Origin: Caldifarciminota bacterium SM23_42
GTDB lineage: Bacteria; Hydrothermota; Tepidihabitantia; SM23-42
Assembly (NCBI GenBank): GCA_001303785.1
Contig: LJUJ01000006.1
Span: forward strand, 1-64,000
Length of the DNA: 64,000 bases
Direction: 5' to 3'
Of the stretch, positions 25,374 through 42,954 are shown piece by piece (the first letter of the stretch is position 1; the number at the start of each line of letters is the position of its first letter). The notes beneath the pieces were generated by a model. That model did not search any database. It was not told the DNA's origin and saw nothing but the letters and a program-made list of their open reading frames with translations. Position numbers and translations under genes: made by a program.

Positions 25374-27791
25374 CTATTTCTTCTTCCGCTTCTCCTCTTC
25401 CTCGGTAATAACCTTTACCGTATGTTCGATTTCATCTTTGGTCACTTTCTTCCTCAGTTCTTCAATATCTTGCATGGTTTTCTGGAATCGCTGTCCCTCA
25501 GCCGCACTTATCCACTCGAGTAGCAACCTTTCGGGTCTGATGCCCCATTTTTCCAATTTGTCCCACAACTTCTCGACTCGCTTCTGAGTCCAGCGATTGG
25601 CATCAATATAGTGGCAGTCAACATAATGGCATCCGGATACGACGACCATCGGAGCACCTTTCTTGAATGCATGGAGAACGAATTTTTCATCGACTCTGCC
25701 GCTACACATGGTTCTGATCAACCGTTGATTGGGGGGATATTGTAAGCGGGCACCGCCGCACGTGTCGGCGCCAGCATAAGAGCACCAGTTACAGGCAAAT
25801 ACAATGACCTTATCGTGAGGGTTCTCCTCGAGATGTGCATCGATCTGGGTAATGATTTGCTCGTCCGTGAAATGCTTCATCGTTAGTGCACCAAAGCGAC
25901 ATTCAGCAGCGCACGTACCACATCCCTTACAAAGAGCCTCAACATAGCTAATCGTCTTCTTCTTCGGGTCTACAGTGAATGCTCCATATGGGCATACCCT
26001 CGCACATGAAGCACAGTAGTGGCATAAATCCGTGTTCAGGGTCGACGTGATCGCCTCGAGTTTTACCTTACCAGCAGATAACAAGGTCTCCGCCCTCGCT
26101 GCTGCGGCACTAGCTTGGGTCACCGAGTCTTTGACGTCCTTCGGTGCTTCGGCACAGCCAGCAAAGTATATGCCCATTGAAGGTGCATCAACCGGTTTCA
26201 ATTTAGGGTGCGCTTCCATGAAGAAACCGTCAGGCGTTTTTGAGAGGGTCAGTAGTTTCTGAACCTCGGGCATGTCTAATCTAGGAGTCACGCCGATTGA
26301 GAGCACCATCATGTCAAATTCATGATCTTCGATTTTGTTTGAGGTAGTATCCTCAACCATGACCCTCAAGTTACGAGTCTTGGGGTCCTCGGTTATCTCG
26401 CCGGGAATGCCCCTTATGTACTGTACGCCTGCCTCTTTGCTTCGATTGAACAAGTCCTCAAAACCCTTACCGAAAGCCCTGATATCGATATAGAATACTT
26501 TTGCCTGTATATCAGGGTAATGATCCTTCAGAAGTAGCGTGTCTTTGATTGTATTCATGCAGCAGATGTTGCTGCAATAGGGTTTGCCGATTTTCTCGCA
26601 GCGGGAACCAACACATTGGACAAAACCGACTGTCTTTGGTCTTTGTCTATCAGTTGGCCGGATGAAGTGTCCATCAGATGGTCCTCCGGCCGACAATAGT
26701 CGCTCAAATTCCATGCTCGTAACGACGTTCTCGTATTTAGTGTATCCGTACTCTTCTAGAATCGTAGGATCGAATACGTCCATTCCCGTTGCCACAATGA
26801 CGGTGCCGACTTTGAACTCGATTGTCTCGTCCTTTGCGTCGTAATCAATACACTTCTTATCGCATTTCTCGGCGCACTTGCCGCAGGCAATTGGATTTGT
26901 GCCGAGACAGCTTTCCATATCGATCAGAGATGCTGAAGGTACGGCTTGAGGGAATGGAATGTAAATAGCCTTTCGTGACGAAAGACCCTGCTGATACTCA
27001 TCAGGGACAACTACAGGGCATACTTCAGCGCAATCTCCGCATGCAGTACATTCGTTTTCGTTTACGTACCGTGCCTTCTTCAGTACCTTAACTTGAAAGT
27101 TGCCGACGTAACCGTGTATCGACTCTACCTTGCTGTATGTTAAGAGTTTTATGTTGGGATGTCGACCGACATCCATCATCTTCGGACCGAGTATTCATAT
27201 CGCGCAGTCCATTGTCGGGAATGTCTTTGCCAGTTGCGCCATGATTCCGCCGAGTGCGGGTTCCTTCTCAACCAAGTATACTTGATACCCAGCGTCGGCC
27301 AAATCGAGTGCTGACTGCATGCCGGCTATGCCACCGCCGATTATCAAAGTTGCTTTTTCTACCAGTATTTCCGTTTCGTCCTGTGCGGCAAGATACCGTG
27401 CCCGCGCAACATATGCCTTCGTAATGTCTTTTGCTTTCTGAGTTGCTGCTTCACGCATTCCCATGTGTACCCACGAACATTGCTCTCGGATGTTGGCCAT
27501 ATCGACTAAATATGGATTCATGCCAACCGAAGAAACGCATTCTCTGAACGTTGGTTCGTGCATACGCGGTGAACAAGCTGCTATAATGACCCTATCTAGC
27601 TTCTGTTCCTTAATCGCATTTTTGATTTCTGCCTGACCGGGTTCTGAGCACATATAGCGATTCTTTGCGGTGTAAACAACATTGCCGAAATTTTTTGCGT
27701 CTTCGACCAATTTATCAACATCAACTGAACCAGCGATGTTGGTACCGCACTCGCATATGAAAACCCCGATCTTGAGATCGTCCTGCGGCAT
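25374..27791 (-). CDS. HdrA-MvhD fusion, selenocysteine-containing (TGA at 27195-27197)
   Basis: 805 residues if TGA is read as Sec199. HdrA is the FAD protein that bifurcates electrons in heterodisulfide reductase-type complexes. In order: HdrA N-terminal domain (FICECGTNIAG; about 5-145), FAD motif IIGGGIAGMQSALDLADAG (about 150-168), FPTMDCAI-Sec-ILGPK, a [4Fe-4S] motif (CTACGDCAEVCP, about 248), VQCVGSRCEK, two further ferredoxin motifs (CHYCASCARVCP; CKGCGTCAAEC), and an MvhD domain from about 660 (FACNWCSYAGAD). The paralogue at 44759-46708 has Cys at the TGA position. ATG 27791 follows AGGGGGTG; GTG 27800 is the alternative. Read without recoding, it would look like a broken gene. Confidence 0.88.
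27157..27174 (-). promoter_or_regulatory. candidate bacterial SECIS hairpin of HdrA1
   Basis: Beginning 20 nt after the TGA, GGATGTC-GGTC-GACATCC forms a perfect 7-bp stem with a GGUC loop. The GG-U loop and the distance fit known bacterial SECIS elements. A matching hairpin lies at the same distance in HdrA2; the Cys-type HdrA3 lacks it. Confidence 0.65.
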
Positions 27792-27819
27792 TTTAATCAC
27801 CCCCTTTCTGGGTAAACTC

Positions 27820-27953
27820 TAAATTCGAAATTCTAAATGCTAAACAATCTCCAAATCCGAAATCCGAATGTTCAAAACTGTGTCTAGCGTATTTTCTTTT
27901 TTGTGCAAATTCGAAATTCAAATCTCGAAATTCGAATTTTTCTGATGTAGAGT
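27820..27953. repeat. degenerate 7-nt AAATTCG-type array
   Basis: Between hdrB1 and hdrA1: repeated words AAATTCG, AAATTCT, AAATCCG, AAATCCG in roughly 7-nt register (27828-27880), an unrelated centre, then AAATTCG-like words again up to the hdrB1 stop. Non-coding. Confidence 0.65.
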
Positions 27954-28838
27954 TCATACTTTTGCTTTATCCTTCATTTTCTCTATAATCTTGTCTGCCT
28001 TTATCCGATGGGTGTGGAGTCCTACTTCTTCCGGCTCCATGCCTTGGGCAAGACCGAGAAGCTGAAACAAATAAATAACAGGTATATTATATGTCTTTCC
28101 TCTCTTGCGAGAAATCATTATCTGCCCCAAATCAAAGGAAGAAAAACATGTTGGGCAGATCAATCCCATACAATCTGCACTACTTGCTTCAATCGATGCG
28201 AATATCGATTCAGTCATATCTAATGGTAGATCTTCATCCATGCATCCTTTTCCGCAGCACAAAAGCTTCTCCTTGTGCTCTACAGGAATCGCACCCATTG
28301 CCGTTATGAAATCATCCAGAATACTCGGGTAGTCTGCATCGTCGACATGCATTATCTGGCTCGGTTTCAATATATGACAGCCATAATGGATCGCGACTTT
28401 TATTTCTTCGAGTGGTTGTTTTACTGATTTTTTCACAACATCCAGACCTAACTCGTCTCTAATGAGAACTACTGCATGACTGACTTTTACTTTTCCCTTG
28501 TATTCTTTATTCACTCTCTTCAGGCGTTTGTTAACTTCGTCTTTGAGTGCTGGATCTTCTTCGAGAGTGTATTGTGTCTCGCGCAGAGTTGAGATACAGC
28601 CCGAGCACATGGTGACCACGTCGAGACCAGTTTCCTCGGCCACGGCAAGATTTCTAGCCGCGATGGTCAGCCACTTGATTTTGTCGCGTGCCTTGAAATA
28701 AATAGGATCGGGACAACATGTGAATCCGTCGACATCCACCAGTTCAACACCGAGATTAGGCATTGTCTTTCTGATTGCTAGTTCCATTTGCGGATATTTC
28801 AGGGGCATCATACAACCCCAGAACGGAATGATCTTCAT
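27954..28838 (-). CDS. HdrB-type subunit (two CCG domains)
   Basis: 294 residues. HdrB carries the noncubane [4Fe-4S] clusters that reduce disulfides in heterodisulfide reductase. Both cysteine-rich CCG domains are intact: WGCMMP...FTCCPDP...CSGC and HYGCHILKPSQ...LLCCGKGC...CPTC. No membrane segment, so it is cytosolic and works with the HdrC just upstream and HdrA1 just downstream. The natural disulfide substrate in a bacterium is unknown. The ribosome site before the ATG is weak. Confidence 0.9.
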   Translation of the reverse strand: MKIIPFWGCMMPLKYPQMELAIRKTMPNLGVELVDVDGFTCCPDPIYFKARDKIKWLTIAARNLAVAEETGLDVVTMCSGCISTLRETQYTLEEDPALKDEVNKRLKRVNKEYKGKVKVSHAVVLIRDELGLDVVKKSVKQPLEEIKVAIHYGCHILKPSQIMHVDDADYPSILDDFITAMGAIPVEHKEKLLCCGKGCMDEDLPLDMTESIFASIEASSADCMGLICPTCFSSFDLGQIMISRKRGKTYNIPVIYLFQLLGLAQGMEPEEVGLHTHRIKADKIIEKMKDKAKV

Positions 28839-28850
28839 GGTCGATTCATC

Positions 28851-28930
28851 CTATTGTCGAATAGTCTTATGGTCTGATAGTCGCATGGTCTCATCGTCGT
28901 ATGGTCTCCTTGCCTCATAGTCTCATTGTC
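28851..28930. repeat. 8-nt periodic array, 10 units
   Basis: Ten 8-nt units in exact register, consensus NNATNGTC (CTATTGTC, GAATAGTC, TTATGGTC, TGATAGTC, GCATGGTC and so on). It fills the whole hdrC1-hdrB1 gap and runs into the hdrC1 3' end, supplying its last codons and stop. Confidence 0.88.
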
Positions 28931-29441
28931 GCTCGTCATTATCTTTGTTGTCCTTTGGTGGTTCTTCCTGGTCAGCTAAGATTTCCTTGAGTTCCTCAAT
29001 GGGTACCGTTCTCAACTCAGGAAGACCCAGTTCTTGTCGTCTTCTGTGAACCGTTGAAGTAACCGTAACACTCAATCCTGTTTGTGCGATGTTCTGTGAG
29101 AGTTTTGCCAGATTCTCAGGTGCGGTTCCTTTTTCCACGGCCATATTCTTTAGCGCGATGATGACTTCTATGGGCCGTACATCCTGTGGACATCGCTCAT
29201 AGCACGAATAGCAGTTTGTGCAGAGCCAGATAGGCGAATCCTTACCGAGCAATTCCTCTTCGGCACCTAACAGTGCTTTCAAGAGGATGACTCGAGGGTT
29301 GAATTCGTCAGTAAAGCGAGCCGCCGGGCATATTGCTACACATGCACTACATTGATAGCAGTAGTTATGATGTTTTCCGCCCTGGACTTTATTGAGTTTG
29401 TCCCTGAACCGGTAATTTACTACGATTTTGTCCTTAGCCAT
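28923..29441 (-). CDS. HdrC-type iron-sulfur subunit
   Basis: 172 residues from ATG 29441. Two [4Fe-4S] motifs, CYQCSACVAICP near 28-39 and CTNCYSCYERCP near 80-91, as in HdrC, which relays electrons from HdrA to HdrB. A longer frame from 29486 is built of repeat sequence and was not used. The C-terminus is acidic and hydrophilic and ends in Glu-Arg-Gln derived from the 8-nt array. Confidence 0.88.
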   Translation of the reverse strand: MAKDKIVVNYRFRDKLNKVQGGKHHNYCYQCSACVAICPAARFTDEFNPRVILLKALLGAEEELLGKDSPIWLCTNCYSCYERCPQDVRPIEVIIALKNMAVEKGTAPENLAKLSQNIAQTGLSVTVTSTVHRRRQELGLPELRTVPIEELKEILADQEEPPKDNKDNDERQ

Positions 29442-29582: not shown

Positions 29583-30737
29583 TCATTTGTCTGTTTCCTC
29601 TATAAGATCGGCGATGAACGTAACGAGCTGGACCGTTTCAATCTTAGATTCTTTGCCCGCTCTTTCGTCTTTCATCGCGCAATTGAAGTGGATTTCGCAT
29701 TTGGGGCAGGAAAGAACAAACAGATCCGCCTCGGTTTCTTTCGCTTCTTTCAGACGCGCGAGTTGGATGCTTTTTGAGTAGGTCGAACAGTTCATCCATG
29801 CGCTCACTCCGCAGCATATTGCACGATTCTTATTTCTCGTCATTTCATTGAATTTTATATCCGGTACCGCGGCGATAGCGTTTCTGGGTTCATCGTATAT
29901 TCCCAAGTGCCGGCCCAGCCGGCAGGGATCCTGGAAGGTCACGACTTTGTTAAAATTCTTGAGCCTTATTTGTTCATTAGATATCGCATCGCTTATTATT
30001 TCGGTAATATGTGCTACCTCAATATTGAAACCAAAGTATTTTGGATAATCGACCTTAAATGTTCTATATCCCTCAGGGCAAGAAAAGATTATTTTCTTTA
30101 CACCAGACTGCTTGATCTCGTTAATATTATGTTCGGCCAATTTCTTGAAATTCTCAAAATCACCGCCCCAGAGAAGGTCATGTCCGCAGCAACGCTCTTG
30201 AGGCAAAACCACTGGTGTTATACCTAAGTGGTTCAGAATCTTGATGCTCGCCTTTGCGGCCTTCAGGGTGTTGACTTCTATGTCGCTGAATAGGGTGTCA
30301 AAATACGGCAGACAACCCACGAAGTAGAGGACATCACCAGACTCAGCAGTCTTCAGCTCATCGTCGATCCAGGCCATGCGTTTTTGCTCCAGGTCCGGGG
30401 AAGTCATTATACGCATCAGGGTTTGTGCAGCACCGCCGTGTGAGCACATGGCTTCCTCGCCGATTTTCTGGGCTTCAAGGCGTGTTGCTAGAGTCAAATC
30501 GATATACTCGATCCCAGCCGGGCACCGCTCATCACAGAGCTTACAGGTTAAACATGCCCAGATATTTTTGTCTTTTAATAGATCGAGGTCGTCACTACGT
30601 ATTGCCTTGTTGACGAGTACCCGCGGTGAATACCCGTGATTGAAGCGTGAAACCGGGCACGAACCAGTGCACTTGCCGCACTCCATGCAGAGATAGGCTC
30701 TGGATGCCTTGATGGCCGCTGATATGTTGCTAATCAT
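29583..30737 (-). CDS. HdrD-like iron-sulfur oxidoreductase (4Fe-4S plus two CCG domains)
   Basis: 384 residues combining an HdrC-like N-terminus (CMECGKCTGSCP and CLTCKLCDERCP) with two CCG domains (VGCLPYF...ERCCGHDL...SCPEGY; QDPCRLGR...AICCGVSAW...SCPKCEIH). This is the architecture of HdrD and related Fe-S oxidoreductases, a soluble thiol/disulfide or membrane-quinone-linked electron carrier. In the first CCG domain the last motif is CPEG rather than CxxC, so that cluster may be altered. It overlaps mvhD1 by 8 nt. Confidence 0.83.
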   Translation of the reverse strand: MISNISAAIKASRAYLCMECGKCTGSCPVSRFNHGYSPRVLVNKAIRSDDLDLLKDKNIWACLTCKLCDERCPAGIEYIDLTLATRLEAQKIGEEAMCSHGGAAQTLMRIMTSPDLEQKRMAWIDDELKTAESGDVLYFVGCLPYFDTLFSDIEVNTLKAAKASIKILNHLGITPVVLPQERCCGHDLLWGGDFENFKKLAEHNINEIKQSGVKKIIFSCPEGYRTFKVDYPKYFGFNIEVAHITEIISDAISNEQIRLKNFNKVVTFQDPCRLGRHLGIYDEPRNAIAAVPDIKFNEMTRNKNRAICCGVSAWMNCSTYSKSIQLARLKEAKETEADLFVLSCPKCEIHFNCAMKDERAGKESKIETVQLVTFIADLIEETDK

Positions 30738-31200
30738 GTGTCTTTTCCGCTTTCAAGTTATCTAAGGTTTTCTTTCTAATCTGCGACGGTCCGAGCTTCC
30801 TGATCGTATCGGTGAATTCCTGAGCAACCCTCGCGAATTTTGAGGCCTCCGCAGAGGAGATCCAGTCGAGCTTGAGGCGTTCTTTCTCAATGCCTAGCAT
30901 TTCGGTGAGTTTCTCGGTTATCTTGTGCACGTCAGCAGCCTTTCGAGCCCCGAACATGTAGTGGCAATCTTCAAAATGGCAGGTAGCAACCAAGACCCCA
31001 TCGGCACCTAGCTCGAACGCCTTTAGCACAAAGGCTGGCGTAACGCGACCCCCGCACATCACCCTTACGATTCTGATGTTGGTCGGATATTGAAGCCTTG
31101 CGACGCCGGCACCGTCGGCGGCTGGGTAAGAGCACCAGTTGCAGCAAAAGGCGACGATTTTCGGTTCGAACTGCGTAGTCTTATTGTCTGATGGTCTCAT
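30730..31200 (-). CDS. MvhD-type [2Fe-2S] subunit
   Basis: 156 residues. FCCNWCSYPAADGAGVARLQYP, MCGGRV and CHFEDCHYMFG are the MvhD/FrhD-like cysteine motifs. MvhD carries electrons between a donor module and HdrA. The same fold is fused to HdrA1 and stands next to HdrA3. The ATG at 31200 lies inside the 8-nt repeat array, and the first nine residues are array-encoded; GGAG is 11 nt away, so initiation may be inefficient or begin nearer residue 10. Confidence 0.85.
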   Translation of the reverse strand: MRPSDNKTTQFEPKIVAFCCNWCSYPAADGAGVARLQYPTNIRIVRVMCGGRVTPAFVLKAFELGADGVLVATCHFEDCHYMFGARKAADVHKITEKLTEMLGIEKERLKLDWISSAEASKFARVAQEFTDTIRKLGPSQIRKKTLDNLKAEKTHD

Positions 31201-31335: not shown

Positions 31336-34300
31336 CTATGCACCAAAAAGCGCCTCCAACTGAGCCTCGATCTGTTCACTCCTGAAGTGTTTCAGGTCGA
31401 TCGCACCGGTAGGACATGCCGCGACGCAGGTTCCACACCCTTTGCACAGTGCTTCGTTAACTTGCGCAACGAAAACACCCTTTTCCTTCTCGACCAATTC
31501 TATTGCACGGAATTCGCACACCTCAGCGCACCTGCCACATCCTCGACAATACTCTTCGATAACCGTCGAGGTTATCGGCGCCAGGGTAATCTTATCCCGG
31601 CTGAGCAGTGCTGCAACCTTGGAAGCCACGGCTGATGCTTGAGAGATCGAATCCCCGATGTCCTGCGGGAACTGACAACAACCACACAAGAAGACACCCT
31701 CAACCGTTGTCTCCACCGGACCGAATTTCGAGTGACGCTCCAAGAAGAATTTGTCTGGACCACGTGGTACCTTGAACAACTCCGAGAGGCGGGCTGAATC
31801 GGCAGCCGGTACCATACCCACAGAGAGCACAACGAGATCAACCGGGATGGTGATGTTCGCGTCAATGTCGGACGAGGGAATTGTAACGGCTTTGACCTTA
31901 TCCGTGCTCGTGATTTCTGGCTCTCCCTCGTACGGTAAGAAGAGAACGCCCAGTTCTCGTGCCTTTCGGTACATCCGCTCGGCGCCTTTGGAATAAACCC
32001 TGACGCCGCGGTTGAGAATCGCGACATCGATCCCTTTTTCTCTTAAGTGAATCGCTTCCTTTATCGCTGCTTGGCAGCAATAGCGAGAACAACCAGGGTT
32101 GCCGTCGTCACCCCTTGAGCCGATACATTGGAAAAAAACAACGGATTTCACGTGTTCAATATCGCCCGCTAGTATTTCTTGCTCTAACTCCATATTGGTT
32201 ATGACATTCGGGAATCGACCGTAGCCAAAGCGCTCGCCTGGGTCATACAGCTCTGATCCGGTGGCGAGTACAATAGCGCCCACCGTGAATTCACGTTCTT
32301 GTGCTTTGATCTTCACCTTGACCTGGAAATTGCCGACATAACCAGTAACATCGATAAGCTCGGCTGACGTCAGGAGTTCACCACCCGCACTATTGAATTC
32401 ACTGATCAGTTTCTCTATGATCTCTTTCCCTTTTTTGAAACTTGGATAAATACTGGAAAGATTACGCACAAGACCACCTGATACTTCCTTCTTTTCGATG
32501 ATCTTGACATTAAAACCGCGAAGCATTAAATCAATTCCACAGCGCAGGCCAGTGATGCCAGCGCCAATGATAGCAACATCTCGGTTAACCGGGAGCTCTT
32601 TCATGAAGAGGGGACCGAGCTTTCGGACGCGCGCCACCGACATTCTTACCAATTCTTTTGCCTTCTCGGTTGCCTTTTCTGGTTCTCGCTGGTGTACCCA
32701 GGAGCATTGGTTTCTGATGTTCGCAATATCAAAAAGGTACGGGTTGAGACCAACTGCAGTCAATGAATCCTGAAAGCTCATCTCATGTGTCTTAGGCGTA
32801 CAGGCGGCGACAACGACTCGGTTCAGTTTATGTTCGGCTATCCGTTCTTGAATCTGATGTTGTGATGTTTCAGAACAGGCAAAAGTATGTTCCTCAGTGA
32901 ATACCACATCCGGCAATGTCTTGGCATATTCGACGACGTCTTTGATATCAACAACCCTTGAAATATTCGGTCCGCAATGGCAAACAAAGACACCGACGCG
33001 CGGCGGGCCGGAAACATCAACCTGTTCGATTTCTTTTTCCTCGATCGGAAGTTCGTGGCCCTCTAGAAAACATGCTGCCTTCGCCGCGGCACCGCTTGCC
33101 TCGGCGATCGAATCGGTAATGTCCTTAGGGCCTGTGGCACAACCGCATACCATAATACCGTTTTTCGTTGACTCGAGCGGTCTGATTGCTGGCTCGACGT
33201 TCTTGAAAAAACCATCATCGTCAGTTTCAACGCCGAGCAATTCGGCTAATTCCTTGCACCCTTTTGAGGGAATCAGCGCCGAAGAAAGGCATACCGCATC
33301 AAATGTCATTTCGCTAGAGCGTCCCTGCTCATCTTCATAATGGATGACTAAATTTCCCTGATCATCCTCGATGACCTTTGATGGTTTACCCCTAACATAT
33401 CTCACACCCTTTTCGAGTGACCGATTATAGAATTCTTCAAACCCTTTTCCAAAAGCTCTGATATCTATGTAGAATACTACTATGTTCGCATCAGGATAGT
33501 GCTCTTTCAGGACCAGGCTATCCTTGATTGTGTTCATACAACAGATGCGACTGCAATAGTTGATGTCACGACGCATATTGCGCGAGCCGACACACTGGAT
33601 GAATGCAAAACGCAGCGGTCCTTCCAGTTCTTTGCCCAGAGGAAGTTCTCCACTGCTCGGGCCATCTTCGCTCATGATTCTCTCGATCTCAAAAGATGTA
33701 TAGATGTTTTTGAAGCGCCGGTATCCGTACTCACTTGCTTCCCTGGGATTAAGATAGTCGACACCCGTCGTAACGACGATCGAACCCACATCCAAGTCAA
33801 CGAATTCATCCACCATGTCGTGAACGATGGCATTTGGTTCACAGGCCTTAACGCATTCGAGGCACTCTGCACAACCGGCGCAGCTGAGACATCGGGCTGC
33901 TTCGCGTTTGGCCTGGTCTTCGGAAAAGCCTTGGGCGACTTCTTCGAAACCCTTTTTTGCTTTCTCCACATCGAGTAAAGGCATCTCGGTTCTTTTCTCA
34001 GTCCCTGTGTCCTCCGGAATCTCGATATCTTCATCCTTGACCCGAGCATCCCGTTTTTTCCTGTTCTTTTTCAAGTCCACACCCCTGATGAATCGGTCGA
34101 TCGATTCCGCAGCTTCTTTTCCGGCGGCAATCGCCTCGATTATTGTTGCTGGTCCAGTAACCGCATCGCCACCGGCAAAAATACCGGGTATGTTTGTCTG
34201 CAGTGTATCAGGGTCCACGGCGAAGGTCCCCCACCTCGTCAACTCGAAGCTTTCTTCTTTCGTTAGAAACGAGACATCGGCCGCCTGGCCAATTGCCATT

Positions 34301-35760
34301 ATTACCATGTCCAAATCGATGGTGAATTCAGAGCCCTCGATGGGTATTGGTCGCCTTCGGCCCGAAGAGTCAGGCTCGCCGAGCTTCATCTTTATACACT
34401 CCATTCCTGTGACCTTACCGTCTTTGCCGAGTATCTGTGTCGGATTGGTCAAATAATGAATTTTTATCCCCTCTTTCTCTGCCTCGACGATCTCCTCTTC
34501 GTTCGCGGGCATTTCTTTGCGCGAGCGGCGATACACGACAAACGCCTCTTCGGCGCCGAGACGCAATGCGGTGCGAACCGCATCGATTGCTGAATTCCCG
34601 CCGCCGACCACGGCCACCCGTTTACCTACCGGGATACTCGATTCACGGACGACATTCTGGAGAAACTCGACACATAGTACTACACCCTTCAAATCCTCAC
34701 CATTGATGCCCATGGCTTTTTCCTTGGCCGCGCCTAACCCGAGAAAGATTGCCTTGTAATCCTTTGCGAAGAGATCTTTGATGCCAAAGTCCTTGCCCAA
34801 GACAGTGCCCGTCTTGATCTCGACACCCCAGCTCTTTATGTAATCCAAGTCACGCTGTAGTGCCTTTTCTGGTAATCTGAATCGCGGTATTGCCCAGTAC
34901 AGTAGTCCCCCGGGATGATCCGTAGCCTCGAAAACCGTTGAACAGTATCCTCTCTTGGCAAGAAAATATGCGACAGACAATCCTGCTGGTCCGGCGCCAA
35001 CGACGGCGACCTTCTCTTTGTTCAATTCGGGACTCGGCTGTGGGAGCTCGGGTTCCTGATCAGATATGAAGCGCTTGAGCTGAGCAATGGCCAGCGGTTC
35101 ATCCACGTCTTTGCGCTTACAGTCCGATTCGCAGGGATGGGTGCATACACGCCCGCAGACAGCCGGGAATGGATTATCCCTGCGTTCGAGCTCCAGAGCT
35201 TCTTCGTATTTGCCCTGTGAAATGAGCGCGATATACCCCTGAGCATTGACTCCTGCGGGACAGGCATATCGGCAGGGCGCCGCGCCCTTTTTGTCAATAA
35301 GGAATTTGTTAGGAACTGCCTGGGGATACTGACGATATATTGCTCTTCGTTTTGAAAGGTCTAATTGAAACTCATCATTGACTTGCACCGGGCACACCGT
35401 TGGACATTCGCCGCATCCAGTACATTTGTCCCAGTCGACAAATGTGGACTTGCGCTTAACCTTCACTCGAAAATCAGGTGCTTCTCCCTCGACGCTAATC
35501 ACTTCGCTATTGGCGAGGATTTCGATGTTAGGATGCCGACCGACATCCATCAGCTTAGGACCGAGGATTCAGCTAGTGCAATCCATCGAGGTGAAGATTT
35601 TGTGAATCTGGGATGTCCGACCGCCCAGGCATGGGCCACGTTCGACAAGGAAGACCTTGAACCCGGCATTGGCCAAATCCAACGCGGACTGAACCCCAGC
35701 TACACCTCCACCTATGACGAGTGCTCCTTTTGGCATAGTATCCTTCTGTTCCTTGTTCAT
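31336..35760 (-). CDS. giant HdrA-GltD-like-HdrA fusion flavoprotein, selenocysteine-containing
   Basis: 1474 residues if the TGA at 35569-35571 is read as Sec64. In order: FAD motif [19 protein letters not shown] (13-31), MDCTS-Sec-ILGPK, [4Fe-4S] [12 protein letters not shown] (about 115), an inserted glutamate-synthase-small-subunit-like module (about 160-570) with [32 protein letters not shown] and [15 protein letters not shown], then the rest of HdrA (VQCVGSR-like FIQCVGSRN), and a second HdrA from about 930 ([25 protein letters not shown]; terminal motifs [11 protein letters not shown] and [11 protein letters not shown]). It probably links NAD(P)H to Hdr and ferredoxin. ATG 35736 behind AAGGA is an alternative start. 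Confidence 0.85.
35531..35548 (-). promoter_or_regulatory. candidate bacterial SECIS hairpin of HdrA2
   Basis: Starts 20 nt after the TGA, as in HdrA1: GGATGTC-GGTC-GGCATCC, a 7-bp stem with one G-U pair and the same GGUC loop. The A-to-G difference from HdrA1 keeps the pairing. Part of the likeness may reflect the conserved peptide VGRHPN. Confidence 0.63.
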
Positions 35761-35761
35761 G

Positions 35762-36325
35762 TTAATTCTTTTGCGAATCGCCTTGCCTTTTCACGGCCTC
35801 GAGTCCATAATTGTAGCCGCGATCGAATGCCTTCAGGTTCAATTCCAGGGCTTTTTCGGGAACCGATTCTGGCAAAGCCTTTTTCATTGCATCATAACTG
35901 ACGACCCCTGTGATCGCGGTGAAGAATCCAAGCATGACCACATTGGCAACGATTTTATGGCCCAATTCTTCAGCAAACCGCGTTGCCGGTATGGCATGCG
36001 CCGCAATGTGTCCGCGCGACTGCTTGGGCTTCACAAGATCTTCATCGTACAGTAACCTTCCCTGCTCACTCATTTCCGGCTCAAACTTATCATAGCCGGC
36101 TTGTGACATGGCAACCAGAATGTCGGATTCCGTAATATACGGATATAACACTTTGCTCTCGGAAACGACCAATTGTGAGCTACATGCACCACCGCGTGCT
36201 TCGGGCCCAAATGATTGGCTCATTGTTGCGTGCTTGTTGTCATAGATTGAAGCTGCCCTTCCTGCAATAATTCCGGACCTGATGATGCCCTGACCTCCAT
36301 AACCTGCAAATCTGATTTCAGCCAT
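35762..36325 (-). CDS. 2-oxoacid:acceptor oxidoreductase, gamma subunit
   Basis: 187 residues from ATG 36325 behind AGGAGG (an upstream in-frame extension to 36490 lies inside the previous gene). [25 protein letters not shown] and [13 protein letters not shown] are the gamma-subunit signatures of the pyruvate/2-oxoglutarate:ferredoxin oxidoreductase family. It follows two alpha-beta pairs with no second gamma, so it may serve both. It stops 1 nt before the HdrA2 start, suggesting tight coupling of 2-oxoacid oxidation to the giant HdrA. Confidence 0.88.
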
Positions 36326-37103
36326 TCTTGCCTCCTGATACCTTCTGCTTCTCCGAAGCAGGACCATGAGGAGTAAACTTGTCACCAAGTATTTTAGTGT
36401 GCTGAACATTGTATGAATCAATGAATGTTGGTCTTTCCTTGTCTGTAAATTTACCGACAATGATTTTATCATCTCCAGTGATGGCAGCATTCCTTGGGTC
36501 TTCGTTGTTTTTCACAACTGAGTTTTCAAAGTAGAACTGCAGGAGTTCCGACTCAACGACATCGATACGCCGGTAATAATTAGGCCCCGGCGCAAGGACT
36601 TCGATCATAGAGAGGCCTCGTTTGTGCAGTGCCTCGCTAACAGAAGCGGCAAGTTCTTTGGTGTGTAAGGCTGTCCATCGAGCAGTGTAGACCGCCCCAC
36701 AGGAGTTGCCAAGATGTGGAAAATTGAACGGTTCTTCGAATGTTGAATAAGGTGAAAAAGTCGCTTGCGTGGAGGGTGCGGGTATGCCTGCGATCTTCTT
36801 GTAAACAAAATTATTGACGCATATGACAAGGAGCTCCATGTTCCTTCTTCCTCCATGCACAAAGTGGTTTCCACCGAGTGTCATCAGATCACCCACGACT
36901 GGAATTACCTTGAGACTTGGATTACCTAATTTCAGCCCTGTGCCAAAAGCAATGGCGCGTCCGCGCGGGGTCTGGAAATAATCGACCCCTAAGGACCTAA
37001 CAGCTTCTGGCTCAAATGGAATGTCTGATGTAATACTGATTCTTTTGCGATCGACACCAGCCGCTTCTATTCCTTTGTTGAGTGCGCTGATAATTGAATT
37101 CAT
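36318..37103 (-). CDS. degenerate 2-oxoacid oxidoreductase beta subunit (korB')
   Basis: 261 residues, related to the thiamine-diphosphate beta subunit at 38338-39225 but altered. The N-terminal HIWCPTCG cluster segment is missing; the protein starts directly at the first helix. The ThDP/Mg motif GDG is GDL (residues 71-73) and NNFIYAMTGGQ has become NNFVYKKIAGI. GGNHFVHGGRRN and the rest of the fold are kept. It probably no longer binds ThDP and its cluster normally, and could be a structural or specificity partner of korA'. It overlaps korA' and korC. Confidence 0.8.
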   Translation of the reverse strand: MNSIISALNKGIEAAGVDRKRISITSDIPFEPEAVRSLGVDYFQTPRGRAIAFGTGLKLGNPSLKVIPVVGDLMTLGGNHFVHGGRRNMELLVICVNNFVYKKIAGIPAPSTQATFSPYSTFEEPFNFPHLGNSCGAVYTARWTALHTKELAASVSEALHKRGLSMIEVLAPGPNYYRRIDVVESELLQFYFENSVVKNNEDPRNAAITGDDKIIVGKFTDKERPTFIDSYNVQHTKILGDKFTPHGPASEKQKVSGGKNG

Positions 37104-38341
37104 TCCTTTAATTTGAAACCTCCCTCAAAGACTGATTTCTGCAACCGAGTCTTGAATTCAACGAGACCTTCGATTTTTTTCTCTTCTCTGACAGCCATCT
37201 CGATTGCATCGGCGATGTCATTTGGATTGTGAACGCCGGCACCACCATGAGGAACGAGTACGACATTCGCGTCGCCGTGAGCACACCGAGCAACGTCATA
37301 AACGACCTGTCCGTAATTTATTTCAGGAACCACAAACGCTCTTGCTTTCTTCGCGAGTTCACTCATTCTATCATCAGGAAAGGGCCATACCGTAACGAGT
37401 CGTAGCGTCCCGACCTTGATGCCTTTTTCCCTTGCTATCTCGACTCCCTTTACCGCTACCCTTGATGATATCCCGTATGAGACGACGATGACATCTGCGT
37501 CATCAGTTCCTTCTTCTCTCAACTCGATGATATTGTTTCTGTTGAGTCGAATCTTGTCGACCAGCCTTCTAACATACTTAGATTTGTACGCTGAATCCTC
37601 GACCGGATAGCCTCTTTCGTCATGCACCAGGCCTGTGATATAAAGTCTGAGTCCATCGCCGGCTTTTGCCATTTTTGGTACCAGGTCAGGTTCCGGCTTA
37701 AACGGCAAGTAGTCTTCTGCCGGACCAGTATATAGCCTCCTGGGTTCGACCTCAATCCCGTCGGCTTCGGGTATCACTACTTTTTCAGTCATATGGCCGA
37801 CACATTCATCAGACATTATCATGACCGGGCAACGATACTTTTCCGCGAGATTAAATGCCTTGATAGTGTAATCAAACATTTCTTGGGGCGAATCTGGTGC
37901 GAGGGCGATGAGTTCATAATCTCCGTGAGAGCCCCACCTCGATTGCATTATGTCTGCCTGCCCGGTCTTAGTAGGAACACCGGTGGAAGGTCCGCCGCGT
38001 TGAATGTTGAGTAGGACAAACGGTGTTTCCAACATCGCGCCGAAGCCAATACACTCTTGCATAAGAGAGTAACCCGGGCCAGAAGTAATGGTCATGGTCT
38101 TGACTCCTGACCAGGCCGCACCAACTATTGCGGATATGGAGCCCAGTTCATCTTCCATTTGAATAAACACAGCTCCGACCTGCGGCCCCCTACGACACAC
38201 TGCTTCGAACGCCTCGGTTGATGGGGTAATCGGATAGCCCGCAACAAATTTGCATCCAGCGGCCAGGGCCCCGTAGCCCGAAGCCACGTCGCCATCTATG
38301 TAGTAGATACCAGTGAGCACATCCTTTGGATTAGCCTTCAC
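37100..38341 (-). CDS. 2-oxoacid:ferredoxin oxidoreductase alpha subunit, second copy (korA')
   Basis: 413 residues from GTG 38341, which overlaps the korB TGA in a GTGA pair; the open frame extends to 38401 but that part lies inside korB. The alpha-subunit core is intact: GYPITPSTEAFE, FIQMEDELGSISAIVGAAWSG, TSGPGYSLMQE, RGGPSTGVPTKTGQADIMQ, and a C-terminal domain with LVTVWPFPDDRM. Similar to KorA/VorB types. It probably pairs with the degenerate korB' or competes with korA for korB. Confidence 0.88.
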   Translation of the reverse strand: MKANPKDVLTGIYYIDGDVASGYGALAAGCKFVAGYPITPSTEAFEAVCRRGPQVGAVFIQMEDELGSISAIVGAAWSGVKTMTITSGPGYSLMQECIGFGAMLETPFVLLNIQRGGPSTGVPTKTGQADIMQSRWGSHGDYELIALAPDSPQEMFDYTIKAFNLAEKYRCPVMIMSDECVGHMTEKVVIPEADGIEVEPRRLYTGPAEDYLPFKPEPDLVPKMAKAGDGLRLYITGLVHDERGYPVEDSAYKSKYVRRLVDKIRLNRNNIIELREEGTDDADVIVVSYGISSRVAVKGVEIAREKGIKVGTLRLVTVWPFPDDRMSELAKKARAFVVPEINYGQVVYDVARCAHGDANVVLVPHGGAGVHNPNDIADAIEMAVREEKKIEGLVEFKTRLQKSVFEGGFKLKE

Positions 38342-39225
38342 TTCCTGCTCCCACGTTGCCCACCCGAACGCCTTCCTGCGGTTTTCACATCCGAAAGCCA
38401 TTGATTGTATCTTTCCATGTAGGAGGGTCTTTCTCGATCAACGAATTTACCACAAATGATTTTTGTTTGAAACCCAATATCTAAATTCTTCGTATCTTCA
38501 CCGTGTCTTATTTCAACATTGTCGTGATAGAATCGCATCATATCGAGTCCATCACCGAGCCGGTTAATTCTCGAATAATACATACCACATGGAGAAATTG
38601 CTTCGACTACGGCAAATCCTTTCTTTTGTAGCGCTTCAGTCAAGGAATTGGTCAGCCGGCGCACGTGAAGTGTTGTCCATCGTGCTACGTACACCGCGCC
38701 GGATGAATCGGCGAGATATGGAATATTAAAAGGCGGTTCGACACATCCGTAAGGAGATGTCGTGGCGTAAGCAGCTAATGGCGTTGTTGGGGCTACTTGG
38801 CCTCCGGTCATCGCATAGATGAAGTTGTTAACACATACCACAAGCATGTCGATGTTTCTCCGGGCAGCATGTATGAAATGATTTCCGCCGATTGCGATCA
38901 GGTCGCCATCGCCAGAAAAGACAACAACTTTTGTTTTCGGACTGGCAACTTTTATCCCAGTTGCAAAGGCAATTGGCCGACCATGCGTCGTATGGAATGA
39001 GTCTAGTTTCACATAACCGGCAACTCGACCCGTACAACCGATGCCCGAGACAATGCTCACGGTGTTGGGATCGATCTTTGCCTTTTCAAGTGCCGCCGTG
39101 AAGGCAGTGACCGCGATACCAATCCCGCAGGTTGGGCACCAGATATGTGGCATTCTGTCCATGCGGAGTAAATTCTCCATCGGATGGATTTCTTGTTTGC
39201 TGTCGGTTCTTAACGCTTCCATCAT
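38338..39225 (-). CDS. korB: 2-oxoacid:ferredoxin oxidoreductase beta subunit
   Basis: 295 residues. Complete ThDP-binding subunit: HIWCPTCGIG (cluster cysteines), SGIGCTGR, THGRPIAFATG, the ThDP/Mg motif FSGDGDLIAIGGNHFIHAARRN and NNFIYAMTGGQ. It decarboxylates a 2-oxoacid and passes electrons to ferredoxin; the likeness to KorB suggests 2-oxoglutarate, but branched-chain 2-oxoacids are possible. ATGATG follows GGGAGAG. A C-terminal Lys/Arg-rich extension reaches into the korA' start. Confidence 0.9.
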   Translation of the reverse strand: MMEALRTDSKQEIHPMENLLRMDRMPHIWCPTCGIGIAVTAFTAALEKAKIDPNTVSIVSGIGCTGRVAGYVKLDSFHTTHGRPIAFATGIKVASPKTKVVVFSGDGDLIAIGGNHFIHAARRNIDMLVVCVNNFIYAMTGGQVAPTTPLAAYATTSPYGCVEPPFNIPYLADSSGAVYVARWTTLHVRRLTNSLTEALQKKGFAVVEAISPCGMYYSRINRLGDGLDMMRFYHDNVEIRHGEDTKNLDIGFQTKIICGKFVDRERPSYMERYNQWLSDVKTAGRRSGGQRGSRK

Positions 39226-39232
39226 CTCTCCC

Positions 39233-40426
39233 TTATGCTAATTCAATGATTCCGCTTTTTGCTACGTTAGTCTGAGAGGCCTGTTTGATTGCCGAAAGGA
39301 TATCTTCGGTATGTTCAACTCCGTTGTCGCCATGGGGTACGAAGAATACATTTGCTTCTCCGTAAGTATTCCTTTCCACTTCGAGAACGACCTGACCACA
39401 ATTCATTTCCGGTACCACAAAAGCCCTTGCTCTCTTGGCAAGTTCGGCCACTCTCTTTTCAGGAAATGGCCATACGGTAACCAGTTTAAGGCTTCCCACC
39501 TTGATTCCGGAGTCACGGGCTTGCTTTATTGCTTTGAGCGCCGCCCGGGAGGTAGCGCCGTAAGAGACCACGACAACATCTGCCTCATCTGTATCCGTCT
39601 CTTGTACCTCCACGATTTTGTCGGCCGCTTGGCGTATCTTCCATACCAAGGGATGAACATTGTACTCCTGACATTCCTCGAACATAATTGGATAACCGCG
39701 GTCGTCATGGGTTAGTCCCGTAACATGGAATCGGTAGCCCTGCCCGATGTCAACCATGCGAGGCACAAAGTCTTTATCACGCTTAAAGGGCAAGTAGCTA
39801 TCTTTTGCTCCCTCATAATATCGGCGTGGTTCAACATTAATTTGGTCGGCCGGGGGAATCAACACAGTTTCCTTGAGTCGAGCAACATGGGCGTCTGACA
39901 TTATTGCAACAGGTATACGATAGCGTTCAGAGAAATTAAAGGCCTTGATAGTGTAGTCAAACATTTCTTGTGGCGAACTTGGCGCCAGTGCTACGATTTC
40001 ATAGTCACCGTGTGAACCCCATCGTGCTTGCATCATGTCACCTTGCGCTGGATGTGTTGGCAGCCCCAAACCTGGCCCGACCCCTTGAATATCTGCAATC
40101 ACGCATGGCGTTTCTAGCATTACACCAAGTCCAAGATGCTCCATCATGAGTGATAGACCTGGGCCAGAAGTCACGGTCATTGATTTCTTGCCGGTCCATG
40201 ATGCGCCAAGGACGGCGGCAAGCGCAGAAACCTCATCCTCCATTTGGATGAAGGTGGCGCCTACTTGAGGGGCTCGCTCGAGGAATCTCTCGGAGATTTC
40301 GATCGAGGGTACGATCGGGTAAAGTCCCAAGAAGCGACATCCAGCGGCCAAAGCACCCTCAGCGCATGCCTGGTTGCCACTGAGAACATGGGAGCCGCTC
40401 AGCACTCCGTTCTTATCTGCTTTCAT
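39233..40426 (-). CDS. korA: 2-oxoacid:ferredoxin oxidoreductase alpha subunit
   Basis: 397 residues. Alpha subunit with FIQMEDEVSALAAVLGASWTG, TSGPGLSLMMEHLG, the substrate loop GVGPGLGLPTHPAQGDMMQARWGSHGD and the C-terminal LVTVWPFPEKR. The YPITPS motif of its relatives is YPIVPS here, and RGGPSTG is VGPGLG, so specificity may differ from korA'. It starts after GGGAGAAGG, 97 nt past frdA, the largest gap in this half of the cluster; no clear promoter was found there. Confidence 0.9.
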   Translation of the reverse strand: MKADKNGVLSGSHVLSGNQACAEGALAAGCRFLGLYPIVPSIEISERFLERAPQVGATFIQMEDEVSALAAVLGASWTGKKSMTVTSGPGLSLMMEHLGLGVMLETPCVIADIQGVGPGLGLPTHPAQGDMMQARWGSHGDYEIVALAPSSPQEMFDYTIKAFNFSERYRIPVAIMSDAHVARLKETVLIPPADQINVEPRRYYEGAKDSYLPFKRDKDFVPRMVDIGQGYRFHVTGLTHDDRGYPIMFEECQEYNVHPLVWKIRQAADKIVEVQETDTDEADVVVVSYGATSRAALKAIKQARDSGIKVGSLKLVTVWPFPEKRVAELAKRARAFVVPEMNCGQVVLEVERNTYGEANVFFVPHGDNGVEHTEDILSAIKQASQTNVAKSGIIELA

Positions 40427-40523: not shown

Positions 40524-42179
40524 TCAAAATACGTCAATCATTCTCGCGAGTGCTGCCTTGCCTCGATAATCCGGTAGTATGATCGGTGCTCTTCTCGTAC
40601 GCTTTATGCCAGCTTCTTCAAGCTGTTGAACATACTGGTTTAGGTGGTCTATTGTGACACTGATTTCTCCACTGTACGATTTGACATAATCTGCAGTGCT
40701 CATACCTGCTCTCCTACCGAATACCAGGCAGTCGAGAGTGGAATTTCCCATTAAACGATTCTTGCCGTGGACACCGCCCGATACTTCGCCGGCAACCCAG
40801 AGTCCTTCGATGTTTGTTCTGCCCGAAGGGTCGGTCTCTACGCCGCCATTCTGATAATGCAGGGTAGGGAAGACGAGTACTGGATCCTTACGGATGTCGA
40901 TATCGTAGCGTTTGTACATTCTGATCATTCCTGGAAAAGCCTTCTCTATGTAACCCTTCCCATTCTTGATTTCAATAAGAGGTGTATCAAGCCAGACGCC
41001 CCGCAGGCCCGTCGGCGTCGTAATACCCTTGTCGCGGACATAGCACTCCCTGATGATGGACGCGGCCTCAACATCCCTTGGCTCTAAAGGATAGACGAAT
41101 GCTTCACCATCGGCGTTTACTGGTTGAGCACCGCTGCCGCGTAGTTTTTCAGTGAGCAGGTAGCCCACAATCTGAATTGGATACGCAGCACCGGTCGGAT
41201 GATATTGCACGGCGTCGATGTCGCGCAGTTTTGCACCCGCCCTATAGGCTAACACCACGCCATCGAAAGTAGCGCCGTAGTGATTAGTGGTTGGAAATCC
41301 TCTTATGTGGAGCCGACCATAACCACCAGTGGCAATGATCGTTGCCTTTGCTTTGACAATCTTGTAGTCTCCTGTCTCAATGTTCCAAAGGATTGCACCG
41401 GTAACTCGATTACCTTCGGTGAGCAATTCAATGGCCGGGTAATGTTCCAGATATGAGATTCCTCGGGTCCTGAATTCGTCTCTCAGCACCCTGAATTCCT
41501 CAAGCCCGGTGTAGTCGCGGCAGGAGTGCATTCTCTTCACAGACAAGCCTCCGGCGAGCTTTTCTGCGAGATCGCCGTTTTCCTCCCGGTCAAAAATCGC
41601 GCCCAGCTCGCATAGCCATTTCATGATCAACGGCGCGTCTTCGACCAGTGCTCTGGTGACATCGGGTTTGTTGGTGAAGTGACCGCCACCAATGGTGTCT
41701 ATGTAGTGTTTCACGATCGAGTCAACTTCACGGTCCGCGGCCTGCGTTCCGCCCTCGGCCATGATTGAATTAGCATCCCCATGCCTCAATTTGTTCGTGA
41801 GCAGAATATTTTCTTTTGCGACACCGCTGTCATGCGCCCATAATGCGGCAGACGTACCTGCCAACCCACCACCGATTATCAGAATATCGGGATTGTAGTC
41901 GATCTGAGAGAGATCGACCTCGCCCTTTTCGACCAATGGGTAAGCCTCCAGCAGATCGGCTACTTCGTTGGGAGCATTTTGACCCTTGTTTGGTCCGACT
42001 GATATCTCTCGCTTGCCGCCCGGAGCGTAGTCTGGGTGTACTCTCAGGACTTCGTCTCTTTGCTTCATGGTCATGGCTGGTGGTGTGTAATCCAGCCTTT
42101 TGTCACGGGTCTTCGCCACCTTTTCGATTTCCTTTCTCATGTATTCAGGGTATCCTTCAATGTATGTGAGTTCTGCCAT
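40524..42179 (-). CDS. fumarate reductase/succinate dehydrogenase-type flavoprotein
   Basis: 551 residues. FAD motif IIGGGLAGTSAALWAHDSG at about 100, MAEGGTQAAD, the catalytic-domain pattern QYHPTGAA, HYQNGGVETDPSGRT and AGEVSGGVHGKNRLMGNSTLDCLVFGRRAG are those of FrdA/SdhA-like and TfrA-like flavoproteins. At the place of the covalent-FAD histidine (SHTVAAQGG in SdhA) it reads ANSIMAEGG, so the FAD is probably non-covalent. The usual C-terminal helical domain is short. With frdB and HdrBC next door it resembles thiol:fumarate reductase logic. Confidence 0.88.
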   Translation of the reverse strand: MAELTYIEGYPEYMRKEIEKVAKTRDKRLDYTPPAMTMKQRDEVLRVHPDYAPGGKREISVGPNKGQNAPNEVADLLEAYPLVEKGEVDLSQIDYNPDILIIGGGLAGTSAALWAHDSGVAKENILLTNKLRHGDANSIMAEGGTQAADREVDSIVKHYIDTIGGGHFTNKPDVTRALVEDAPLIMKWLCELGAIFDREENGDLAEKLAGGLSVKRMHSCRDYTGLEEFRVLRDEFRTRGISYLEHYPAIELLTEGNRVTGAILWNIETGDYKIVKAKATIIATGGYGRLHIRGFPTTNHYGATFDGVVLAYRAGAKLRDIDAVQYHPTGAAYPIQIVGYLLTEKLRGSGAQPVNADGEAFVYPLEPRDVEAASIIRECYVRDKGITTPTGLRGVWLDTPLIEIKNGKGYIEKAFPGMIRMYKRYDIDIRKDPVLVFPTLHYQNGGVETDPSGRTNIEGLWVAGEVSGGVHGKNRLMGNSTLDCLVFGRRAGMSTADYVKSYSGEISVTIDHLNQYVQQLEEAGIKRTRRAPIILPDYRGKAALARMIDVF

Positions 42180-42193
42180 TCTTCTCTCCTTTC

Positions 42194-42952
42194 CTATTCT
42201 GGCTCTTTTTCGCGTTCAGTATATATCTTTCGTAGCTCATCGATAGCGCAGGTTGTGATCCTAGCCATTTCCTGATTGAATTTGCCTTCGTTTATCTCCT
42301 TGACTCTTTTTCTCAGGTGATCCGGAACCCCTTGCCCATAGCGACCAAACATTCTTCGGCCTAGTTGAGCGACATGATACTGCACGATCTCGGCTGGACA
42401 CCGCATCGCGCACAGTCCGCACTGTATGCAGTCAAAAGAAATATCGGCTAATGCATTGAAATCACCGCGTATGGCGTCTTGTACGTAGTCCATGACCTCC
42501 AAGTCTTGCGGGCACGCCTTTGTGCACGTATTACAGGACACACACCTGGTGACCTCAGGGTAATACTTGATAAAAACTGATGCTTCATAGGGTTCTTTGG
42601 TTATGTCGTAGTCTGCCTTTTCTGCAGGCGTAAACGGGATCTGAACGAGGTACATGCCGTCTTCGGCTCTGGTTTGGCAGGCCATACCCGTTTGCAGCTT
42701 GTAGTCTCCTTTCTTTCTGAATACTGTTGCGCAAGCGCCGCAAAAACCCTGCCGGCAGCCAACGCCTCGGACGAATTTGTACCCCGCGTATTCCATTGCC
42801 GTCAGAATTGTCAAATCGGCCGGGACCTTGTAGGCTTTGCCCATGATGTATATTTCGATCCAGTTTTTGATATCCGTGGCATCAATACCGGTCGTTGCTG
42901 CCTTATTCGCCTCGGCGATTCTTTCCATGATTGGGCTTTTGTTATCTACCAT
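42194..42952 (-). CDS. fumarate reductase-type iron-sulfur subunit
   Basis: 252 residues. An N-terminal [2Fe-2S] domain (CRQGFCGACA...MAC, about 66-92) is followed by two [4Fe-4S] motifs (CVSCNTCTKACP, about 137; CIQCGLCAMRCP, about 176). This is the FrdB/SdhB/TfrB-type wire; it lacks the long CCG extension of archaeal TfrB, which is here supplied by the separate HdrB2 encoded directly upstream. No membrane anchor genes (FrdC/D) exist nearby, so the complex should be soluble. It starts 2 nt after the hdrB2 stop. Confidence 0.9.
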   Translation of the reverse strand: MVDNKSPIMERIAEANKAATTGIDATDIKNWIEIYIMGKAYKVPADLTILTAMEYAGYKFVRGVGCRQGFCGACATVFRKKGDYKLQTGMACQTRAEDGMYLVQIPFTPAEKADYDITKEPYEASVFIKYYPEVTRCVSCNTCTKACPQDLEVMDYVQDAIRGDFNALADISFDCIQCGLCAMRCPAEIVQYHVAQLGRRMFGRYGQGVPDHLRKRVKEINEGKFNQEMARITTCAIDELRKIYTEREKEPE

Positions 42953-42954
42953 TA

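Follow-up and report, generated by a model that had tools for sequence, protein, structure and literature searches.

An in-frame TGA almost certainly read as selenocysteine in an HdrA-MvhD fusion of a WOR-3 bacterium, and relatives with two TGA codons at the site

Introduction

Does a TGA within an hdrA gene end the protein, or is it read as an amino acid? The question is raised by a 64,000-nucleotide stretch of DNA (the window) from a bacterium of candidate division WOR-3, whose members stand under Caldifarciminota in NCBI names; the genome comprises 2.53 Mb in 59 contigs and is 97.17% complete. A preliminary description of the window had proposed that two open frames join in the same phase across a single TGA, that the joined protein is a full HdrA-MvhD, and that this bacterium inserts selenocysteine (Sec) in HdrA.

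Bacterial precedents exist for such a protein. Sixteen Sec-HdrA sequences were counted in 2006 (PMC1794560), HdrA1, HdrA2, HdrL1 and HdrL3 of Desulfobacterium autotrophicum HRM2 were reported in 2009 to contain Sec (PMC2702500), and a 2026 review gives HdrA (NF040770) the motif CxxU with one Sec (PMC13188914). The bacterial SECIS sits within the coding region (PMC1794560, PMC13188914). With Sec-HdrA and Sec-HdrL of bacteria already in print, the genes described here add members to a known group; they are two in number, whereas the preliminary description took the window to hold a single Sec-HdrA gene.

Results

A full-length HdrA-MvhD spans the TGA

The two frames (27800-27195 and 27179-25374, minus strand) are in phase across the TGA with no other stop, as had been proposed (Table 1). 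Their joined product scores 1171.6 bits over residues 10-791 against the NCBIfam HdrA2 model NF040770 (cut-off 1100), aligns to the HdrA of a solved structure (5odc_A, E = 9.1e-235) and carries a C-terminal MvhD/FlpD domain (PF02662, residues 665-781), which confirms a full HdrA-MvhD. UGA stands in frame at the second Cys of the CxxC motif, and the paralogue of HdrA elsewhere in the window does have Cys there, as the preliminary description had noted. Translation probably starts at ATG 27791, three codons downstream of the listed GTG 27800, because AAAGGGGGTGAT lies just upstream and TAA or TAG codons fall between the GTG and ATG positions in three relatives (L038, L039 and L045).

Table 1. 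Genes, TGA codons and predicted RNA hairpins of the hdrA region (positions in the window)
Feature	Position	Strand	Description
hdrA-mvhD fusion gene	25374-27800	minus	read through TGA; 805 aa with Sec199 from ATG 27791, or 808 codons with Sec202 from GTG 27800
hdrA SECIS hairpin GAUGUC-GGUC-GACAUC	27158-27173	minus	loop starts 27 nt after TGA; extra G-C pair 27174/27157 gives 7 bp, -9.4 kcal/mol
In-frame TGA, predicted Sec codon	27195-27197	minus	second position of CxxU (DCAIU-ILGPK); residue 197 of 5odc_A by alignment
TGC, first CxxU position	27204-27206	minus	TGA here in UxxU relatives
HdrB-like	27954-28838	minus	TIGR03288 305.6 bits, below cut-off 345.15
HdrC-like	28923-29438	minus	TIGR03290 110.2 bits, below cut-off 160
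HdrD/TfrB/GlpC-like Fe-S protein	29583-30737	minus	NF004898 141.1 bits, below cut-off 385
Stand-alone MvhD	30730-31200	minus	PF02662 169.6 bits, over cut-off; no internal stop
HdrL-type gene	31336-35760	minus	1474 aa through TGA: N-truncated HdrA with TGA, GltD-like domain, second HdrA
HdrL-type SECIS hairpin GAUGUC-GGUC-GGCAUC	35532-35547	minus	loop 27 nt after TGA; 7 bp with closing G-C; -8.8 kcal/mol
Second in-frame TGA, predicted Sec, residue 64	35569-35571	minus	DCTSU-ILGPK, homologous site
2-oxoacid:acceptor oxidoreductase genes	35762-40426	minus	two subunit sets
2-oxoacid oxidoreductase gamma	35762-36340	minus	below cut-off
2-oxoacid oxidoreductase betas	36318-37103, 38338-39225	minus	below cut-offs
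2-oxoacid oxidoreductase alpha	37100-38401	minus	NF006412 519 bits, over 411
2-oxoacid oxidoreductase alpha	39233-40426	minus	NF006412 499 bits, over 411
Fumarate-reductase-like flavoprotein	40524-42179	minus	TfrA model 309.5 bits, below cut-off
Fe-S protein, named by eye	42194-42952	minus	no NCBIfam match at 1e-20
HdrB/SdhE-like protein	42955-43914	minus	below cut-off
Cys paralogue of HdrA (DCAACILSPK)	44759-46708	minus	at most 4/6 hairpin pairs can form

The TGA is conserved across relatives

Searching 120 related genomes with the protein (query P0002) returned matches at E <= 1e-80 in 97. We fetched the 30 best-scoring loci, namely the window's own and 29 others with 58-92% identity, and found TGA at the site in every one (21 CxxU, 9 UxxU). 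The preliminary description had named TGC or TGT at this codon as the state that would speak against Sec; it occurred in none of the 29 relatives. An alignment of 133 distinct homologues comprised 58 C/U, 55 C/C, 11 U/U and no U/C pairs, with the pair absent from the remaining nine.

We also scanned one genome per species and analysed the best 80 of at least 589 loci. A strict motif assigned 31 as CxxU, 2 as UxxU and 37 as CxxC, with 10 unmatched; a looser motif recovered three more CxxU loci (L066, L098 and L141) and one CxxC (L140). As these relatives are ranked by similarity, the CxxU, UxxU and CxxC counts are not independent events, and nearly all the sister genomes are metagenome-assembled genomes (MAGs). 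Within the best 80, the CxxU form occurred in records of Chloroflexota, Planctomycetota, Acidobacteriota, Zixiibacteriota, KSB1, Thermodesulfobacteriota and others, including the isolate Desulfocicer vacuolatum DSM 3385 (L102), and Cys forms appeared at 62-64% identity and below (L067, L080, L081, L085 and L105). The locus of candidate division WOR-3 bin65 (L064, CP070686.1) shares 92% identity with the window's protein. Even within the genus the gene is not present throughout: of seven genomes searched, four (G003-G006) lacked such an orthologue, and their best paralogues reached 46-47% identity.

This distribution bears on the simplest objection, that the TGA is a point error in sequencing or the mark of a pseudogene with a decayed Cys codon. 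TGA is a single base from TGC and TGT, and assemblies may contain errors; however, the same codon recurs in all 29 further loci and in many phyla, an isolate among them, and a second, homologous TGA lies in the window itself. Conservation refutes this explanation, which we regard as extremely unlikely.

The genome encodes selenocysteine machinery and uses TGA as a stop

The preliminary description held that a complete genome devoid of selB and tRNA-Sec would contradict Sec insertion. We sought the genes in the 97%-complete assembly, revealing selA (478.9 bits), selB (338.6 bits), selD (317.6 bits) and selC, the tRNA-Sec (74.3 bits, anticodon tca), each over its cut-off and all on one contig (C5). 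SelB was recognized by TIGR00475, with no match in the genome to the Pfam wing domain PF09106. The selD gene has a TGA of its own in CAGUASK, a UxxK site of the kind listed for SelD (PMC13188914). In the wider set, selB scored over the cut-off in 12 of 13 CxxU genomes, all 10 UxxU genomes and none of the six with the type-Ia CxxC form (G105, G114, G101, G112, G089 and G093), as well as in four of five genomes with another CxxC type. The remaining CxxU genome (G027, 91% complete) has a selB match under the cut-off, at 190.2 bits.

TGA also serves as an ordinary stop, terminating 19 of the 44 other window ORFs of at least 150 aa (called mechanically and mostly non-overlapping). ARAGORN found no tRNA genes in the window. 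At 4188-5240 on the minus strand lies prfB, encoding release factor 2 (TIGR00020, 450 bits; cut-off 370), the listed ORF of which lacks the N-terminus. Upstream of that ORF reads AAGGAG-CAT-CTT-TGA-C, with the TGA at 5209-5211; we take CTT-TGA-C to resemble the usual programmed +1 frameshift site of release factor 2.

Could the lineage instead have changed its genetic code, with TGA read as Trp or Gly? An in-frame TGA is what such a change would produce, but the TGA-terminated ORFs and the release factor 2 gene with its frameshift site distinguish this genome from those with reassigned codes (tables 4 and 25), and the cognate tRNA-Sec and SelB are encoded. The chance of a code change is vanishingly small.

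A bacterial-type SECIS hairpin follows the TGA

Twenty nucleotides past the hdrA TGA begins GGATGTC-GGTC-GACATCC. In the published model of bacterial SECIS elements, a stem of 4-16 bp closes a 3-9-nt loop in which a G comes early, the distance from the UGA is 16-37 nt and the minimum free energy (MFE) is at most -7.5 (PMC13188914); the hdrA hairpin agrees with it throughout (GGUC loop, 7 bp, 27 nt and -9.4 kcal/mol). Because the hairpin also encodes a conserved peptide, DVGRHP, codon choice provides a test of whether RNA pairing itself is conserved. With stretches identical over 63 nt counted once, all six inner pairs were complete in 55 of 56 CxxU and 9 of 11 UxxU stretches as compared with 2 of 48 CxxC stretches, and among those encoding the same peptide, D[VA]GRHP, in 54/54 CxxU, 9/10 UxxU and 0/5 CxxC. 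Hairpin MFE was -7.5 or lower in 53/56, 11/11 and 1/48 stretches, respectively.

Compensatory changes support the pairing. Pair 38-45 is U-A in 34, C-G in 14 and U-G in 8 of the 56 CxxU stretches and broken in none, the change from Val (GTC) to Ala (GCC) going with an Arg codon that ends in G. In the CxxU alignment, 22 cells had both sides changed against a shuffled mean of 10.7, a value reached in 0 of 500 shuffles; two of the five covariation measures did not exceed shuffles, namely how many pairs show a double change (2; 500/500 shuffles) and how many pair types occur (9; 290/500). Pairing in CxxU fell from 81.3% to 23-45% when the partner was slid by one to three columns, the former figure including the first helix, which is not fully formed in CxxU; helix 2 alone was 99.7% paired. 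One relative (L150) has the peptide altered to SAGRHE and keeps five of the six pairs. The HdrA-MvhD homologue of the isolate D. vacuolatum DSM 3385 (L102), with DCSIU at the site, has this hairpin too.

Folding energies relative to synonymous shuffles gave mean z-scores of -1.63 for CxxU, -3.39 for UxxU and -0.48 for CxxC, with z < -1 in 39 of 55 CxxU versus 13 of 40 CxxC stretches. The window's own hdrA site reached only -0.98, this being a weak test for the site itself, and pair counts and compensatory changes are the better test of the hairpin. Rfam models at gathering thresholds matched nothing in the whole window, and a permissive scan of 26000-28500 gave three chance-like microRNA and snoRNA matches and no SECIS, which we set aside.

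The hairpin also weighs on the possibility that the gene is split into two polypeptides, the second starting at ATG 27179. This ATG lies five codons past the TGA, and the mechanical ORF caller begins there. A pattern admitting TAA, TAG, TGA or TGG at the site nevertheless matched in 33 of the 147 phylum genomes (reversed control, 0 of 147), with TGA in all 33 and TAA or TAG in none; the hairpin stands where a SECIS is expected and is rare in Cys homologues; and the Cys homologues of six phylum genomes, the type-Ia set above, match over the full length without a stop. A split would, moreover, probably cut the FAD domain. We therefore consider two separate polypeptides very improbable.

Facultative decoding of UGA as Sec or Cys is known in principle from other organisms. 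If the Sec machinery acted here and the residue were often Cys, the product would be mixed; this is compatible with the sequence data, although nothing in the analysis favours a mixture, and we regard it as improbable.

Together, the conserved TGA, the sel genes with tRNA-Sec and the bacterial-type SECIS support, at the level of sequence, the earlier proposal that this bacterium inserts Sec in HdrA, and the TGA at 27195-27197 is almost certainly read as selenocysteine.

A second TGA lies in an HdrL-type gene of the same cluster

The second gene, of HdrL type, has UGA at the homologous CxxU site and its own SECIS hairpin (Table 1). As listed, the ORF begins at ATG 35550, just past the TGA; the frame is open upstream to ATG 35760, which we propose as the start. 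Between the two HdrA parts lies the GltD-like domain (NF009410, 594.3 bits; cut-off 516), making this an HdrA with an inserted GltD, and NF040770 scored 1017.3 bits in four stretches, under its full-length cut-off of 1100. The second HdrA half has the N-terminal HdrA domain and lacks CxxC, the aligned positions being K and E (L026). We conclude with high confidence that both TGA-containing HdrA-type genes of the cluster, hdrA-mvhD and the HdrL-type gene, are selenoprotein genes, with Sec placed at the second CxxC position through SelB and the hairpin. This revises how two large redox proteins of an uncultured phylum are read and links an HdrA gene cluster to selenium.

UxxU relatives carry a second UGA and a second hairpin

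Of the 147 phylum genomes, 10 contain the motif DUAIU, with UGA at both positions, as against none for the reversed control; G011, G013 and G022 among them belong to the window's family. In a tree of 113 rows, from which the second L093 copy and L143 had been dropped beforehand as too short, the 11 UxxU rows formed two branches, of 4 and 7 rows, within a 27-row clade with an SH-aLRT of 98; the other 16 rows of that clade make up its third branch, the CxxU group to which the window's gene belongs. The UxxU rows may have a single origin, and the change between CxxU and UxxU may have run in either direction. A further UxxU hdrA (L096, 3001-5469) lies on the chromosome of a Gemmatimonadota MAG, bin29 (CP070758.1), and groups inside the WOR-3 UxxU rows, reflecting either gene transfer or a binning error.

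Directly after the second UGA (UGA2), every UxxU gene has an extra SECIS-like hairpin (hairpin 1) with 6/6 pairs, which was complete in 11 of 11 UxxU, 0 of 56 CxxU and 0 of 48 CxxC stretches; an MFE of -7.5 or lower followed the same division (11/11, 0/56 and 0/48). Its sequence is AUCCUC-GGUCC-GAGGAU, or GUCCUG-GGACC-CAGGAU in some members, and it is accompanied by Arg AGG in all 11 UxxU and none of 104 other stretches, the latter having Lys AAG or AAA. Three related members (L053, L057 and L058) show C-G changed to G-C at pair 18-24, a double change that may represent one event. Both hairpins taken together were 98.5% paired in UxxU genes versus 25.8-50.8% when slid, and double changes occurred at three pairs, equalled in 2 of 500 shuffles; the number of pair types was not above shuffles (306/500).

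These genes bear on the question of whether one SECIS suffices for two close UGA codons or a second is needed. One reading is that UxxU HdrA has one SECIS per UGA, as two hairpins in tandem within the coding sequence, and that the window's gene represents the single-Sec state of the lineage; we hold the chances of this to be evenly balanced. Hairpin 1 would serve the ribosome at the first UGA (UGA1) and be melted as translation advances three codons, after which hairpin 2, the one common to CxxU genes, would act at UGA2. Alternatively, hairpin 2 might serve both codons, since it lies 36 nt after UGA1, within the published range, and the loop of hairpin 1, at 15-16 nt after UGA1, is at the lower edge of that range.

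A selB gene adjoins the UxxU hdrA in all three genomes of the window's family (L173, 2413-4332; L174, 4381-6285; L175, 1592-3514), followed by an HdrL-type gene in L173 and L174. One of the three genomes, G022, has two selB genes over the cut-off.

Discussion

Proposed role of the selenocysteine

The site of Sec aligns without gaps to a residue of known function, query residue 202 (counted from the GTG) falling on residue 197 of 5odc_A (query 111-213 on chain 106-208). Cys197 is reported to be a ligand given to the N-terminal Fe-S cluster of the partner subunit (PMC9012536). Both this ligand role and the SelB/SECIS mechanism come from papers. In the window's gene, SelB carrying Sec-tRNA-Sec would bind the hairpin through the GGUC loop 27 nt downstream of the UGA, and Sec would be inserted at the second CxxC position. 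The residue corresponding to Cys197 would then coordinate the partner HdrA's N-terminal [4Fe-4S] cluster, which lies on the ferredoxin branch, and selenium would stand in for sulfur as a ligand of a cluster that two HdrA units have in common. We infer that selenium is incorporated at the site, where it may tune the cluster or its repair, with potential, repair and oxygen tolerance as possible targets. The preliminary description had invoked a cluster-ligand Sec in HdrA of archaeal Methanococcus; the alignment fits the ligand role, but Sec-HdrA has long been known in bacteria as well (PMC1794560). The 11 UxxU relatives complete a natural comparison of CxxC, CxxU and UxxU from which the part played by selenium at an Fe-S cluster ligand might be learned.

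Relation to known selenoproteins

Like the Sec-HdrA described before (PMC1794560, PMC2702500, PMC13188914), the window's protein is encoded with UGA in place of the second CxxC cysteine and has an HdrA/MvhD context. It differs in its WOR-3 lineage, in the fusion of MvhD to HdrA and in the clustering of two Sec-HdrA-type genes with 2-oxoacid oxidoreductase genes. Selenocysteine in HdrA of WOR-3 was the subject of no paper found in the open-licence literature searched, part of it represented by listings; one WOR-3 paper ties selenocysteine to glycine reductase.

The HdrL-type protein shares its GltD/glutamate-synthase-like part with HdrL of D. autotrophicum (PMC2702500) and with type III HdrA carrying an inserted GltD (PMC12054007). 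Its first half has Sec and is devoid of the N-terminal domain, the second half being the reverse, an order opposite to that of the fused HdrA3/4 (PMC9012536). The complementarity of the halves fits that fused protein, with the order reversed.

The UxxU relatives depart further from precedent in carrying two Sec, a state not listed for HdrA in the accessible parts of PMC1794560, PMC2702500 and PMC13188914. Selenoproteins with UxxU are known from other families (Prx-like, putative mercuric reductase and FmdB-family proteins; PMC13188914, PMC9312934, PMC2398784), in which the UGA codons are likewise three apart and for which the available portions of these sources mention no second SECIS. Neither UxxU HdrA, two-Sec HdrA nor a tandem SECIS was found described in the open-licence literature searched, some of it in the form of listings.

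Other HdrA-related genes and the gene cluster

Elsewhere in the genome, an HdrA-MvhD-like protein (contig C55, 5009-7000; L022) has YPEGTPYSHTL instead of the CxxC pair, so it may be a partner form that does not donate a ligand. We rejected Sec in this C55 homologue: CxxC is absent, and the TGA comes close to where the frame ends. Matches to the formate dehydrogenase alpha model were also rejected as selenoprotein candidates, being below the cut-off and having no internal stop, and none of the genome's four MvhD domains contains one either.

The neighbours of the window's hdrA-mvhD, comprising HdrB- and HdrC-like proteins, MvhD, 2-oxoacid oxidoreductases and a fumarate-reductase-like flavoprotein (Table 1), suggest from gene content that 2-oxoacid oxidation feeds the Hdr system. 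The three genes at 40524-43914 (minus strand) possibly encode a soluble fumarate reductase tied to Hdr.
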